DNA of 64,000 nt from Ignavibacteria bacterium (GTDB lineage Bacteria; Bacteroidota; Ignavibacteria; Kapaibacteriales; UBA4661), in the NCBI GenBank assembly GCA_013298775.1, contig JAAFIV010000022.1, forward strand, positions 1 through 64,000. Reading direction: 5' to 3'. Of the stretch, positions 22,634 to 39,569 are shown in pieces. Both the position numbers and the translations under genes were made by a program. Below the pieces are notes generated by a model, which searched no databases, had not been told where the DNA came from, and saw only the letters and a list, made by a program, of their open reading frames with translations. Each line of letters starts with the position of its first letter. Position 1 is the stretch's first letter.

Positions 22634-22957
22634 ATGAAACCAGAAAAAATTTTAGAAGACTTAAAAATTGTAGCAGAACAAATCGGCGTACACGTCATTA
22701 TTGACAAAGGAAATTTCGTTGGTGGACATTGTTTGGTGTATGAGCAGCGTAAAATCGTGCTGAATCGCCATTTGCCGACCGACGTAAAAGCAGCGAAACT
22801 CGCACAAGGCTTGGGACAATTCTCGCTTGAAGAAGTCCAATTAAAGCCGCCCGTGCGTGATTTTATCGAACGCGAGAGACTACGCCTCCGTGAACGCGAA
22901 CAAGCAAATGAGCAATCCACTCTGGCGCAACAACTCGTTCAGGAAGCAAACAACTAA
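22634..22957 (+). CDS. Small conserved hypothetical protein
   Basis: 107 residues beginning MKPEKILEDLKIVAEQIGV. The core VIIDKGNFVGGHCLVYEQRK contains a GGxC motif and is followed by IVLNRHLP. The C-terminal 35 residues are a charged helix (RERLRLREREQANEQS). From memory, similar 90-110-residue proteins with the (F)xGGxC core and a downstream IVLN(K/R)..P occur across FCB bacteria; no function is known. Start ATG is preceded by AAGAGAAATT. It sits between two transporters-unrelated genes, possibly single. Confidence 0.7.
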   Translation: MKPEKILEDLKIVAEQIGVHVIIDKGNFVGGHCLVYEQRKIVLNRHLPTDVKAAKLAQGLGQFSLEEVQLKPPVRDFIERERLRLREREQANEQSTLAQQLVQEANN

Positions 22958-23304: not shown

Positions 23305-26118
23305 ATGGCACGACCCGCAAAACCGCGTAAACCCTCAGCTAAAGCTGATGCGAACAACGCACAAATACCCGCACTTTCTCCAAAAATTTCTCAAGAAGAA
23401 CGTGCGCCAAATCAAGAACAGGTTCTTGAGCAAACACCCCTAGAGGCCGCTTCAAAGCAATCACCGAAAGCAAAAGTAAAAGCTGCACCAAAGGTAAGTG
23501 CAAAAAAAGCTGCCGTCAAAAAGCTGGATAAAGCTGCTGCTCCAACGGAAAATAATCTTGAAGCTGCAAACGAGCCAGCATCTCCCAAAGCCGCACCAAA
23601 ACAAGCTCCTGTGGCAAAAGAAATTGCTGCGAAAGAAATGCCTACAAAAGGAATTCCCGCGAAAGAAATTCCCGCGAAAGAAATTCCCGCGAAAGAAATT
23701 CCTGCAAAGCCGCAGGAATCCTTGAAGCAGGACAAGCACAATGCTCCAAAACAGGACGTTCAGAAGCAAGGGAATTTGAAACAAGAGAATCCGAAGCACG
23801 AAGCTCAAAAGCACGAAGCTCAAAAGCAAGATGCTCAAAAACAGGAAGCTCAGAAACAAGATTCCAAGCCGCTTCCAAGCAAAGCCGCCCCAGCGCAGCA
23901 AACACCGCCGCCCCAGCAGCCAAAACCTCAGAACGAACCGCCCTTGCCGCTTGCAGAGTTTCTGGTCCAAAAGCATGGCATTGTGAATACAGCAAATGTG
24001 TTCGCCAATCTAGGAACAGCGCACTTGTACGAGCATATTCTCTTTTTGCGCGAAGGCACAATTTCCGCGCAGGGTGCGCTTGCGACGAGTGTTTCTGCGG
24101 CTTCTGCGGGAACGGACGAGCGCATTTTTATTGTGGAAGAGCCAGTTAATCAAGAATACATCGCATGGAACGATGCACACCGTCCTTTCGAGCAAACAAA
24201 GTTTAATGCGCTGAAATCCCGCATCGCAGCGTACTTGCAGGGCAAAAGTATTTATGTGCAGGATTGTTTTGTTGGCTCGGACACGCGCTTGCGCCTACCC
24301 TTCCGCATTATCACCGACAACGCGGCACAGTCGCTTGCGGCACGAAATCTATTCCCCGAAGCACAAGCGCATGAGTTAAAAGGCTTCGACCCGCGCATGA
24401 CGATTTTATGCGTCTCGAACTTCAAAGCCATTCCAGAGCTAGATTCTACGCCGTCGGAAGCATTTGCCATCATTGATTTTTCACAACGATTGGCGATTAT
24501 CGGTGGCTCGAAGCACATCCGCGACATTAAAAATATCGCCTTTACCGTGATGAGCTATGCAATGCCGCTTCGCAAGGTTCTTCCTTTGCATGGCGCATCA
24601 TTACTCAGTCCAAACGGCGACACGACCTTGCTTATGGGCAACGCAAGCTCAGGCAAAACAGCTCTCGCACTTGACACGAACCGCCAAATGATTGGCGATG
24701 ATGCTAATGCGTGGGGCGACGAAGGTATTTTTAACCTTGAAAGCGGCATTCTTACTCGTATTCAGCCGAGTGTAGTGAGCGCACCGCAAGGAAATACGCC
24801 ACTTCCAGCTAACGATGCACAATCCTTGCTGCATTCGGCAACAAAACTTTTTGGAACGGTACTGGAAAATGCGCAGATTGACGCGCAAAGCCGCACTATT
24901 GCTTACGCAGAAGGCGGACAGAGTGTGGCAACAATTTCCCGTGCTGCACTTGGAATGGAAGCGGCATTGTCGCCGAAAAATCGCGGTGGGCATCCGAAAC
25001 ACGTGATTCTGCTGGTGAATGACGCACTGGGCGTACTTCCGCCTGTGGCGCGGCTTACGCACGAGCAAGCGGTGTTTTTCTTCTTGTCGGGCTATCAATC
25101 ACGCGCAGCAGAAGGCACGGAAAAAGAGCCGCACATCAGCTTCAATCCTTGCTTCGGCGAGGTGCAGATGCTCGAAGACCCGCTTGTATATGCAAACATT
25201 TTCCGAGAAAAATTGCGTAGAAACCGCTCCAATACGTGGCTGGTGAATACAGGCATTCAGGGCGAAGCGGGCGGTAAAGTCTCGCGCATGAAGGTGGAGC
25301 AAAGTCGCGCTATTCTCCATGCCATTATGAACGGCGCATTGCAAAGTGTGGAATACAGCATTGATGCGGTTTTGGGGCTGCAAATTCCCGCCGTTTGTCA
25401 AGGTTTGCCCGCGCCGATGCTGAATCCGCGCAACGCATGGCAAGACCGCGCAAAGTTTGACAAAGCCGCACAAAACCTTGTGAAACGCTTCAACGACCAT
25501 TTTACGCGCTTTGCGGGTAAACTTGAGCCAATTTTCGCTGACGCGCTCAATCCCGCAGCACAACAGGCGTTGATGGCACAAAACGCTCAACCCAAGTCAG
25601 AGCAAAAACCTCCGCAAGGCAAAGCACATCCTCAGCAACCGAGCAACCAAGAACCAAACAACCAACAGCCAGGTTCTAAGCAACCAAGCAATCAAACACC
25701 GAACAAGCAGAACGACAAATTTGTAGGCAAGAGTAAAGCAGCACCAACCGAAGCCGAGATTCCATCAGGCTTAGATGATTTTGATGCTGAAAATCTTGAC
25801 GATAACATCAATGTTGAGCCGCTTCCCGCCGGACTTTTCGCCCGCACCGACGCACCAGAATTTGCACCAGAATTTCACCCAACGCTTGAAAGTGCGATAG
25901 ATGCTGCCTTTGAAGGCGAAGAGACAACCGTGCTTCTTGCTCGCGATGAGGCACATAACGACGATAACAGCAATAGCAATGATAATAATAATTTCCCCGA
26001 AGACGGCGATTTTGCTAACACCCAGCAAGAGCAGGGCAACCGCGAATGGCGCGGCGGCGGAAATAATCGCTTTCGCGGCGGGCGTGGTGGACGTGGGCGC
26101 GGTGGAAGAAGAAGATAA
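23305..26118 (+). CDS. PEPCK-like protein with low-complexity N-terminus and RGG-box tail
   Basis: 937 residues from ATG 23305 (MARPAKPRKP). Residues 1-212 are Lys/Ala/Pro/Gln-rich, with a KEIPA repeat and QK/EAQKQ repeats. Residues 213-750 align with ATP-type PEP carboxykinase: GNASSGKTALALD (Walker A at 445-452), IGDDANAWGDEGIFN, GVLPPVARLTHEQAVFFFLS, TWLVNTGIQG. Residues 760-810 are Gln/Asn/Ser-rich, then acidic, ending in an RGG box (RFRGGRGGRGRGG). Two functional residues differ from the family: RSPKDK is replaced by GTDERI (substrate Arg lost) and the second Lys of the Mn site, MKKG, is Asn (IKNI). His and both Asp of the metal site remain. Probably not a normal PEPCK. Confidence 0.85.
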   Translation: MARPAKPRKPSAKADANNAQIPALSPKISQEERAPNQEQVLEQTPLEAASKQSPKAKVKAAPKVSAKKAAVKKLDKAAAPTENNLEAANEPASPKAAPKQAPVAKEIAAKEMPTKGIPAKEIPAKEIPAKEIPAKPQESLKQDKHNAPKQDVQKQGNLKQENPKHEAQKHEAQKQDAQKQEAQKQDSKPLPSKAAPAQQTPPPQQPKPQNEPPLPLAEFLVQKHGIVNTANVFANLGTAHLYEHILFLREGTISAQGALATSVSAASAGTDERIFIVEEPVNQEYIAWNDAHRPFEQTKFNALKSRIAAYLQGKSIYVQDCFVGSDTRLRLPFRIITDNAAQSLAARNLFPEAQAHELKGFDPRMTILCVSNFKAIPELDSTPSEAFAIIDFSQRLAIIGGSKHIRDIKNIAFTVMSYAMPLRKVLPLHGASLLSPNGDTTLLMGNASSGKTALALDTNRQMIGDDANAWGDEGIFNLESGILTRIQPSVVSAPQGNTPLPANDAQSLLHSATKLFGTVLENAQIDAQSRTIAYAEGGQSVATISRAALGMEAALSPKNRGGHPKHVILLVNDALGVLPPVARLTHEQAVFFFLSGYQSRAAEGTEKEPHISFNPCFGEVQMLEDPLVYANIFREKLRRNRSNTWLVNTGIQGEAGGKVSRMKVEQSRAILHAIMNGALQSVEYSIDAVLGLQIPAVCQGLPAPMLNPRNAWQDRAKFDKAAQNLVKRFNDHFTRFAGKLEPIFADALNPAAQQALMAQNAQPKSEQKPPQGKAHPQQPSNQEPNNQQPGSKQPSNQTPNKQNDKFVGKSKAAPTEAEIPSGLDDFDAENLDDNINVEPLPAGLFARTDAPEFAPEFHPTLESAIDAAFEGEETTVLLARDEAHNDDNSNSNDNNNFPEDGDFANTQQEQGNREWRGGGNNRFRGGRGGRGRGGRRR
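23646..23705. repeat. 15-bp tandem repeat encoding KEIPA
   Basis: Four near-perfect copies of GCGAAAGAAATTCCC in phase with the reading frame. It lies inside the low-complexity N-terminus of the PEPCK-like gene; a second, weaker run (AAGCACGAAGCTCAA type) lies at about 23796-23855. Confidence 0.9.
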
Positions 26119-36304: not shown

Positions 36305-36332
36305 ATGCAAGCAGTGTCTGTGTGCCTTTGCC
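36305..36332 (-). repeat. leuC 3'-end fragment downstream of the first membrane protein
   Basis: 28 bases, ATGCAAGCAGTGTCTGTGTG then CCTTTGCC on the plus strand, match leuC positions 39657-39684 with 25 of 28 identical. In the leuC frame the segment corresponds to GKGARTLLA. It lies directly after the stop codon of the 36332-37906 gene. Confidence 0.75.
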
Positions 36333-37906
36333 TATTGAAAATCTGCTTTACTCAATTTTACTATTGGGCGCAACAAAAATATTAATGTACATGCTGTCGC
36401 TACCGTTGCTATGCCTGTCCAAATGTACGCCTCCATGCCCATCCAAGGTCCGTGAAAACGGAAGTAGGTTTGCATCGGAAATTGTGAGTATGTAGAAATT
36501 ACGCCTGATAATTCTTGCATCTGTGGGATATTTAACTTCAGATACGATTGAGACCACAGGAAAGTCAAGCCAATAACAGGTAAAGCATTCGCGATTGTAA
36601 AACGCTCAAATTGAAAAAGTAAGCAACATGGCACTATAAAAAAAGGTATCATATTAACAAGTTGCCGTGATTCGGTCATGACTACTGAAAGTAACAATGT
36701 CAGTGAGAAAATGATTGAAAATCCCAGCCCAAGCGTCCGTATAATTGGAATGAGGCGAGGTAACAAGATGAGGACTAATAAAAGAGGGATACCGAAAAAT
36801 ACAGTATTGGCAACAACACCGATAAGTGGCTTTGCTACTGCTGCGGAGAAAGTACCACCCAGAAATAATAATAATTCCATCTCGCTTCGCAAGTCAGGAT
36901 TCTGTGCGAAAATTTTTAGTCCATATAACGCTATCATTATACTGAGAATACTTATCAATCGCATAGCCATGCCTGAGCGACGTACTGAGTGTATAATGCC
37001 TCTTAATGAAAAAAGTGTGCTTGTAAAAAATAGCGTATAAGCCCCGTACATCATTAGCACTAGCATACACAAATACACTAATGGTACAAAAGGTTGCTCA
37101 ACGCTTGTTCCAAAGTTCAGTCCCATTTGCATGGAGACCCAAGCAAAAATCATGAGTGCAAATCCATAGCAAAGTGCTATAACTCTGCGGGCTGTATGAT
37201 GGAAAGGTTGTTCTTGATTCAAAGATTGTTCTATTGACAGCTCACGCGGGAAAAGATAGAGAAAAATCCCCACAAAAGCGGTCGTTTGCCATGTCCAAAA
37301 TCCTACTATGATTGCCAAAAGCAGTAGCAACGAGCGATTCAATAGGTAGGCATAGAGCATGAATATTCCGATAAAGAATGCACTTGTGTCGGTAAGTGGC
37401 GGATAATAAAAGCTATATTTCAGAATGGCAAAATTGCCGAAGACTAGGCTAAAACCTGTCCATGCAACAAGCGTTTTTAATGATAAATGCCTTGCAATCA
37501 GTCCCCATAGCCAAGCTGCAATAATAAGCAACATGAAATTATAGACGCGAAAAACGTCAAAAATTAGTGATAACGGGTGTTGATACGATAAAATATTTGT
37601 CGCCCTGTGAATTTGCCAAAGATAATAGCTTATGTAGTGTACAATCATACTAGGCAATATACGTTGGACACGGTACGGGGACAATTGCTTATTCGTAATT
37701 TGTGCAGAGCCATATGCGGCACAATCTCGAAACCAGCATCCATCCCAACCGCAGCCTTGATTCACCACGATGATTTCACCGAAACTCAAATACAATAAAC
37801 CATAGATGACTATACACAAGGGCATAAACCACAGATAGAGCGGCACTCTACGTGAAGTCGATTTTTTTGGTGTTTTTTGTATGAAAGATTTCTTTTGTTG
37901 TCCCAT
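36332..37906 (-). CDS. Polytopic membrane protein, GT-C-like, paralogue 1
   Basis: 524 residues with about eleven hydrophobic spans. The N-terminus is basic and cytoplasmic. After the first span comes NQGCGWDGCWFRDCAAYG, then PYRVQRILPSMIVHYISYY; an acidic residue in the first outer loop followed by YxxQR/L is typical of GT-C polyprenyl-sugar-dependent glycosyltransferases, so a sugar transfer role is plausible but unproven. It is about half-identical to the next gene over the whole length. It follows that gene by 82 bases and ends against a leuC fragment. Confidence 0.7.
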   Translation of the reverse strand: MGQQKKSFIQKTPKKSTSRRVPLYLWFMPLCIVIYGLLYLSFGEIIVVNQGCGWDGCWFRDCAAYGSAQITNKQLSPYRVQRILPSMIVHYISYYLWQIHRATNILSYQHPLSLIFDVFRVYNFMLLIIAAWLWGLIARHLSLKTLVAWTGFSLVFGNFAILKYSFYYPPLTDTSAFFIGIFMLYAYLLNRSLLLLLAIIVGFWTWQTTAFVGIFLYLFPRELSIEQSLNQEQPFHHTARRVIALCYGFALMIFAWVSMQMGLNFGTSVEQPFVPLVYLCMLVLMMYGAYTLFFTSTLFSLRGIIHSVRRSGMAMRLISILSIMIALYGLKIFAQNPDLRSEMELLLFLGGTFSAAVAKPLIGVVANTVFFGIPLLLVLILLPRLIPIIRTLGLGFSIIFSLTLLLSVVMTESRQLVNMIPFFIVPCCLLFQFERFTIANALPVIGLTFLWSQSYLKLNIPQMQELSGVISTYSQFPMQTYFRFHGPWMGMEAYIWTGIATVATACTLIFLLRPIVKLSKADFQ

Positions 37907-37988: not shown

Positions 37989-39569
37989 TCATTGAACATC
38001 CGCACGACTGAATTGAACGTGTGAACGTAAGAGCATCCACAATATCACACCCGTACCTATTGTTGCTATTCCCGTCCAAATATATGCTTCTATGCCCATC
38101 CAAGGTCCGTGAAAACGAAAATAGGTTTGCATAGCAGATGCTGTAAAGTTAGCTTGGGTTGCTAAATTATGCATTTCCGCAAAATTTATAGGTACATATG
38201 CTTGCGACCAAAGAAGCATCATGACAATAATCCACCATCCAATTGCAAATGTGCTTACAGAACGAACTGTATTTAGCAACAAGCAGCATGGAACAGCGAG
38301 AAATGGCATGAGATTGACAAGTTGTCGTGATTCTGTCATAATACCAGAGAGTAGTAATCCTAACGTGAAAACCAAGACAAACCCCAAACCCAAAGACCGC
38401 ACGTGTAAGACAAGACGCGGCAATAAGAGTAGCGTTATCAGAAGTGATACACCATAGAAGGTTGTGTTTGCGGCAAGAGCTAACAGCGGCTTGGAAACCG
38501 CAGCCGAAAGCGTTCCACCTACAAAAAGTGACAAAGGCATCTCGCTCCGCAGTTCAGAATTCTGAATAATTGATTTGATAAGGTACAATACCGTTGTAAT
38601 TACGAGTGCAGTACCCAAACGCCGATACTGTTCCTTATTGCGCAAGACGATAAAAACTGAAGTAGGCAACAAAAGCGACGAGCAAAAAAATACTGTGTAG
38701 GCTCCATACAATACCGTCAGTAAGCCACACAGGTACACAAGCGGTACAAAAGGCTTCTCCACAGCATCGAAATTGATACTATACCATCCTACCGAAAGCA
38801 TTATCCCTCCAGCAAGGACAAAGGCAAACAACGCTGTCAATCCATAGCGCAAGCGCAATGACATCATCACCGAGGGGTGCTTATCACTAATCTCGGTAGT
38901 GCTATGCGGAATAGTAGTAAAAGGAAACAGATATAGCACAATACCAACAAAAAAAGTTGTCTGCCATGTCCAAAACCCTATTATTATTGCCCCAAGAAGC
39001 AACCAATCTCGCTTCAGGAGATAGGCGTACATCATCAAAATACCGATGAAAAATGCACTGGTATCAGTCAAAGGAGGATAATAAAAACTATATTTTAGAA
39101 TGGCAAAACTGCCAAAGACCATGCTAAATCCCGTCCAAGCAACCATCGTCTTTAGCGACAAATGCCGCGCAATCAAGCTCCAAAGCCACGCGGCACATAT
39201 AAGCAATGCCAAATTATAAACACGAAAGGTTGCGACAATGGCGGAAGTTGCTGTTTCCGGCATTTCCATACCCCACTGCTGCATCATTAATAGGGCGTAA
39301 TAGCTGGCATAATGAACAATCATACTCGGCAACCAGCGTTGTGCGCGGTAGGGTGTAAATTGCTTGTTCGTAAATTGCTGCGGTCCGTAGGCAGCAACAT
39401 CTCGGAACCAGCATCCATCCCAACCGCAGCCCTGATTGACCGCAATAATTTCACCAAAATTCAAATAGAATAAACCATAGACTGCTATACACAATGGCAT
39501 AAGCCAGATGTAGAGCGGTGCACTGCGCAGTGTTTTCCCTTTTGAGGAAGATTTCTGTTGTTTTGCCAT
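37989..39569 (-). CDS. Polytopic membrane protein, GT-C-like, paralogue 2
   Basis: 526 residues, same layout as paralogue 1. First-loop motif NQGCGWDGCWFRDVAAYG, then PYRAQRWLPSMIVHYASYY, and the C-terminal loop FRFHGPWMGIEAYIWTGIAT is shared almost exactly with paralogue 1 (FRFHGPWMGMEAYIWTGIAT). Central spans contain SFYYPPLTDTSAFFIGI in both. It begins 19 bases after leuC. The conserved Cys pair in the first loop may form a disulfide outside the membrane. Confidence 0.72.
   Translation of the reverse strand: MAKQQKSSSKGKTLRSAPLYIWLMPLCIAVYGLFYLNFGEIIAVNQGCGWDGCWFRDVAAYGPQQFTNKQFTPYRAQRWLPSMIVHYASYYALLMMQQWGMEMPETATSAIVATFRVYNLALLICAAWLWSLIARHLSLKTMVAWTGFSMVFGSFAILKYSFYYPPLTDTSAFFIGILMMYAYLLKRDWLLLGAIIIGFWTWQTTFFVGIVLYLFPFTTIPHSTTEISDKHPSVMMSLRLRYGLTALFAFVLAGGIMLSVGWYSINFDAVEKPFVPLVYLCGLLTVLYGAYTVFFCSSLLLPTSVFIVLRNKEQYRRLGTALVITTVLYLIKSIIQNSELRSEMPLSLFVGGTLSAAVSKPLLALAANTTFYGVSLLITLLLLPRLVLHVRSLGLGFVLVFTLGLLLSGIMTESRQLVNLMPFLAVPCCLLLNTVRSVSTFAIGWWIIVMMLLWSQAYVPINFAEMHNLATQANFTASAMQTYFRFHGPWMGIEAYIWTGIATIGTGVILWMLLRSHVQFSRADVQ

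Follow-up and report, generated by a model that had tools for sequence, protein, structure and literature searches.

The REM hypothesis deals with RNA-binding metabolic enzymes, including aconitase/IRP1 and GAPDH (PMC4671484). The protein described here, related to PEP carboxykinase (PEPCK), resembles them in that a second, RNA-linked role is proposed for a metabolic fold. It differs in that catalysis has apparently been abandoned and that RNA would be contacted through an added R/G tail instead of the nucleotide fold. Another comparison is offered by the Rho of Bacteroides, which carries a disordered, condensate-forming insert (PMC13269538). In both cases an ancient protein of the Bacteroidota carries an extension that is disordered and charged; however, Rho is an active termination factor, whereas the present protein is known from sequence alone. 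Pseudoenzymes, moonlighting metabolic enzymes and condensate-forming disordered extensions are kinds of component that are already known. We know of no described PEPCK pseudoenzyme, and within one open-access full-text library the term 'pseudoenzyme' together with PEPCK yielded a single paper, on phosphoglycerate kinase. Likewise, no report of a PEPCK with this architecture was found in that library, a scope outside which most subscription papers lie.

An ATP-PEPCK core with an altered active site

The window, i.e. the whole stretch of 64,000 nucleotides that was analysed, is contig C15 of a 5.19 Mb genome (95 contigs, 99.2% complete). Positions 23305-26118 form a single intact open reading frame of 937 aa. 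Its features are as follows.

23305..26118 (+): tailed PckA-derived protein, 937 aa; the start MARP/MARK is common to relatives
23305..23949 (+): N-terminal tail of low complexity (residues 1-215), rich in K/P/A/Q, net +14, with tandem repeats of 15 bp (IPAKE and HEAQK units); pLDDT<50
23977..25530 (+): PEPCK(ATP)-fold core, residues 225-742, from profile matches and structure model
24109..24126 (+): GTDERI at the RSPKDK substrate site, residues 269-274 (Arg65 lost, = Gly269), by motif alignment
24526..24534 (+): IKN, with Lys212 kept and the Mn-ligand Lys213 = Asn410; Tyr207 = His404 lies just upstream (motif alignment)
24637..24663 (+): P-loop GNASSGKTA, with Lys254/Thr255 kept and Ser250 lost (motif alignment)
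24691..24714 (+): IGDDANAW, with Asp268/Asp269 kept and Glu270 = Ala467 (motif alignment)
25552..26115 (+): C-terminal tail of about 188 aa, first acidic and further on strongly basic, net -10 overall, pLDDT<50
25819..25881 (+): conserved short motifs in the tail, PLPAGLFA ... EFHP (IPPxLFA ... EFRPDD across the genus); P769, L772, F773, F781 and P783 invariant
26041..26115 (+): RGG/RG box REWRGGGNNRFRGGRGGRGRGGRRR, 25 aa, at the C-terminal end

The core is matched by Pfam PEPCK_ATP (PF01293) on residues 231-702 (6.8e-117; 391.5 bits against a cut-off of 26.5). The best solved relative is the PEPCK of T. thermophilus, 1j3b (3.6e-99 over residues 225-742), which is also the best solved match of the core model in Foldseek, with a TM-score of 0.88 by target length. 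In the AlphaFold2 model of the 937-aa protein, built from nine relatives, the core is folded, a large part of it at pLDDT 70-90 and less confidently at about 447-451 and 481-558. Residues 1-211 and 762-937 are unfolded, with pLDDT < 50 in both tails. By its whole-domain homology, its fold and its place in one clade with native pckA, the protein is an ATP-PEPCK (PF01293) by descent, and the PEPCK-like core with P-loop named in the preliminary description is confirmed. Nevertheless, its score is below every NCBIfam PckA cut-off; for TIGR00224, the pckA equivalog, it reaches 361 bits against 590.

Compared with ATP-PEPCK PckA (EC 4.1.1.49; 1j3b/2pc9, E. coli 1aq2), the likeness extends over the whole core at 33-34% identity, with the P-loop Lys/Thr, the DD motif and Arg449 retained. 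The differences lie in two long tails, predicted to be disordered, and in the active site. The latter was numbered after E. coli PEPCK, with positions mapped by motif, and compared with 31 normal PckA (30 from the order and that of Thermus), in which 15 positions are invariant in 31/31. Eight of these are altered here (R65G, Y207H, K213N, S250A, E270A, K288R, R333I and T455S), while K212, H232, K254, T255, D268, D269 and R449 are kept. The oxaloacetate/PEP-binding residues R65, Y207 and R333, which are R, Y and R in all 31 normal genes, are thus G, H and I. The change of RSPKDK to GTDERI and of the manganese-ligand Lys of MKKG to Asn, both pointed out previously, do hold, though the catalytic loss goes beyond what was then described.

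The losses recur in Candidatus Kapaibacterium, the genus of the window's genome. Y207H and E270A are present in 8/8 members and S250 is lost in all of them, while position 65 is L or G. The Mn ligands K213, H232 and D269 read N, H and D in the window copy and K, R and D in six other members; a different Mn ligand is therefore lost in each subclade, H232R with K213 kept in 6/8, and K213N with H232 kept in the window copy and G005. It had been reasoned that related genomes with a canonical RSPKDK and Lys would point to an error in this sequence. The RSPKDK site of the other members is KLAVRDK or KLVVRDK; Lys213 does stand in six of the eight, but His232 is lost there. The P-loop Lys/Thr (K254, T255) and both Asp (D268, D269) are kept in 8/8, and so are R449 and K212 (K212 is unread in G003 owing to a contig break).

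It is known that maximal PEPCK activity requires Mg and Mn together, and that Mn sits in the active site (PMC8100219). Going by their entry titles, deposited structures of E. coli PEPCK include mutants of R65, Y207, K213, S250, K254 and D269; papers on PEPCK mutagenesis that name these residues did not turn up in open-access full text. From the residues lost, we infer that PEPCK activity is abolished in the 937-aa protein.

Predicted-disordered tails and the terminal RGG box

The long, low-complexity flanks of opposite composition noticed earlier are real, with the net charges and low pLDDT listed above. So is the RGG/RG-rich box: the last 25 residues, within the predicted-disordered tail, hold four RGG and five RG. 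The seven intact genus copies, which the tail composition figures cover, all bear a basic K/P/A/Q-rich N-tail, an acidic C-tail in which P..LFA and, after it, an EF.P-like motif are fixed, and a terminal R/G box. The box is REWRGGGNNRFRGGRGGRGRGGRRR in the window and much alike in G005, whereas the remaining five copies have RRRRGGRGRRRP(R/H). For the split G003, the N-terminal piece was read, and its C-terminus carries a weaker, RG-poor version of the box. The search for orthologues with the same extensions thus found them in all eight genus genomes, one of them split. The tails of G009par, the tailed copy in G009, and of G008 (both sister genera, G009 from the same family) are basic and lack a terminal RGG box, which is therefore specific to the genus.

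The pattern coding for RGGRGRG occurs once in the genome, inside this gene, and a search with a 27-residue piece of the tail gave one other match, which was non-significant (E 0.54). Across the class (245 genomes), full-length matches that score low and are of the tailed type are confined to this genus; other low scores are partial matches or a different subfamily. Candidate tailed types in f16, f19, f20, f14, f12 and f24 were rejected, as their low-scoring matches are partial, several at contig ends. Unusually long ORFs in G225, G108, G072, G028 and G019 have ordinary C-termini, and their extra length therefore lies upstream; a long ORF in G014 did not match the motif used for the C-terminus check. 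The earlier impression of an unusual architecture is borne out in that no normal PEPCK in the genomes searched, those of 60 relatives and 245 from across the class, has comparable tails. Separately, several families of the class hold PEPCK_ATP-like proteins of ~615 aa (L070-L074) with the P-loop GMTATGKSTWS and 69-92 bits to PF01293. The three that were read end in RRPG(S/V)WRWR or RKPGVWRWR, and the group looks like a separate PEPCK-like subfamily.

Native pckA and its probable replacements

The divergent form is present in 8/8 genomes of the genus, as intact ORFs of 811-975 aa in seven of them and split over two contig ends in G003. The closest named carriers are MAGs labelled Candidatus Kapaibacterium or Ignavibacteria; one, Clear-D13, which belongs to a Dolichospermum enrichment, is described as a Kapabacteriales MAG (PMC7714850). 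A sequencing artefact, or the frameshift or chimeric assembly joining unrelated genes that had been raised at the outset, is ruled out by the equal architecture in six other genus genomes and in the split G003.

In the tree, the genus and G009par form one clade (support 100/99). G009 also holds a normal copy (L042), which groups with L016 and Thermus; its forced joining with the genus is rejected (p-AU 1e-49). A gene for a PASTA protein lies directly after G009par and downstream of the pckA-like gene in four genus loci, including the window. Because of the tree and this neighbourhood, the tailed gene is the order's native pckA, and not a duplicate of a standing one, while the normal copy of G009 looks acquired. 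The gene is also the only PF01293 match in the genome, so that no hidden canonical pckA was found among such matches, and a recent duplication is ruled out by the single copy and the tree placement. A paralogue of a canonical pckA, which had been raised as a question, is therefore not what the tailed gene represents; it is the native pckA, and the genome's normal PEPCK is of the GTP type.

Other genes around the locus (amidohydrolase, the 107-aa protein, DUF2459, CP-ATP-grasp, PASTA) offered no clue to function. The 107-aa protein (22634-22957, +) has no Pfam match and is conserved just upstream of tailed pckA in most of the genus. Farther along the window, two neighbouring ORFs without a Pfam match, of 524 and 526 aa (36332-37906, -, and 37989-39569, -), stand beside an aconitase-family gene; the former falls where the GC content of the window is lowest (0.41).

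The GTP-PEPCK of the window's genome (PF00821, 541.8 bits) is encoded by one gene, G000:C13. It has a distant fold in common with the 937-aa protein; it differs in being a separate gene with intact motifs (YGGNALLGKK, FPSACGKTN and GDDIAW) and no disordered tail. Its dN/dS against G005 is 0.026, and this canonical enzyme presumably carries out the PEPCK reaction in the genome. Among 61 genomes surveyed (the window's own and 60 relatives), GTP-PEPCK was found in 8/8 genus genomes and the sister genus G008, and in 2/51 other genomes of the order, both of family f3 and with a lower-scoring form. It is absent from G009, which has two ATP-PEPCKs: the tailed 720-aa L043 (G009par), with 15/15 catalytic positions intact, and L042 (G009:C300), a normal enzyme of a type unlike the order's native pckA and probably acquired.

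In G008, the P-loop Gly253 and Lys254 as well as Asp268 are gone, making it the most degenerate PckA remnant. The G008 genome reaches 70% completeness, and a very long branch makes its place in the tree unreliable; the structure model of its remnant (mean pLDDT 46) was of low confidence and was not used. The remnant (L041:53-4634, G008:C37) lies ~104 bp upstream of a canonical pckG of like orientation, an arrangement suggestive of one operon, and the pckG ORF contains an internal run of N.

Selection was estimated by the simple Nei-Gojobori method, with several dS values near saturation. Five genus pairs give a core dN/dS of 0.03-0.12 (window copy against G005, 0.10), and normal pckA pairs 0.02-0.06. 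The values are 0.10-0.23 for the C-tail (three pairs with measurable dS) and 0.18-0.43 for the N-tail. The core is under purifying selection, which speaks against a pseudogene.

Possible roles of the tailed protein

Homology, residue losses, orthology, distribution, selection and conserved tails, all read from sequence comparison, best support the view that the protein is kept for another job needing the fold, the tails and, in the genus, probably the nucleotide site. It is proposed, with moderate confidence, that a native Kapabacterial-family ATP-PEPCK has left gluconeogenesis and now serves, without catalysis, as a scaffold or regulator that probably binds a nucleotide. In such a course, the PckA of the family would have gained a disordered, R/K/G-rich C-terminal tail while catalytically intact, as in G009. 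The metabolic job would then have passed to another PEPCK, the GTP-PEPCK in the genus and G008, and the foreign-looking ATP-PEPCK in G009. The catalytic site would have decayed in the GTP-PEPCK lineages, with the fold, and in the genus the nucleotide site, held under purifying selection. Finally, the genus tail would have become an acidic stretch with fixed short motifs and a terminal RGG box. We infer this order: that the tail came before the loss of catalysis is suggested by one genome, G009. The link between replacement and decay is suggestive rather than a statistical proof, with perhaps two events behind it.

The present-day core may still bind a nucleotide without interconverting oxaloacetate and PEP. 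The tails would serve as tethers, and the RGG box may bind RNA or another polyanion, or promote condensation, making the whole protein a nucleotide-responsive scaffold or regulator. The RGG box and the fact that it is conserved make an RNA-linked or scaffold role, as raised in the preliminary description, plausible. RNA binding itself is argued by analogy with RGG proteins elsewhere, as presented in abstracts; such boxes can bind DNA or protein as well. RGG-type tails in bacteria are, to our knowledge, little studied. A bolder version, in which the native ATP-PEPCK first acquired an RNA-binding disordered tail as a second function, then gave up its metabolic duty to two different PEPCKs in sister lineages and ended as a non-catalytic regulator with a dedicated RNA-associated role, can be held only tentatively.

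Residual or altered catalysis, for example as an oxaloacetate decarboxylase or ATPase, may persist, as several nucleotide-site residues remain. An active enzyme whose chemistry has shifted to a related substrate (such a decarboxylase, another kinase or an ATPase), the tails merely localising it, would agree with the P-loop, Asp, R449 and K212 residues retained across the genus and with the selection on the core. It appears unlikely, though, since two different Mn ligands are lost in two subclades (H232R, K213N), S250 and E270 are lost in 8/8, and the P-loop is wholly lost in G008, all of which fits a single conserved chemistry poorly. A dead homologue might instead regulate the surviving PEPCK or PEP/oxaloacetate metabolism, sensing a nucleotide or substrate and acting via the RGG tail on pckG or on the pckG mRNA. 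Its presence does track GTP-PEPCK in nine genomes, and the gene arrangement of G008 suits this idea; but in the genus pckG is on a different contig from tailed pckA, G008 alone places both genes together, and G009 has a tailed copy without pckG, so that such regulation seems quite improbable.

Decay of a pseudogene after the takeover by GTP-PEPCK, with tails that are junk read-through or repeat expansion, might account for the faster evolution compared with normal pckA (inner branches 1.03 and 0.54), the losses at K213, H232 and R333, and the tandem repeats of the N-tail. The core dN/dS argues against it, with core and tails well below 1. Seven intact genus copies and a G008 remnant without stop or frameshift, along with tail motifs and a terminal R/G box fixed in six aligned genus members, make it very hard to credit.

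In this family, living species present a graded series: a normal PEPCK; a tailed one with an intact site beside a replacement; a tailed one with a broken site and the P-loop kept; and one in which the P-loop is lost. Such a series would allow a direct test of whether a second function precedes or follows the loss of the first job.
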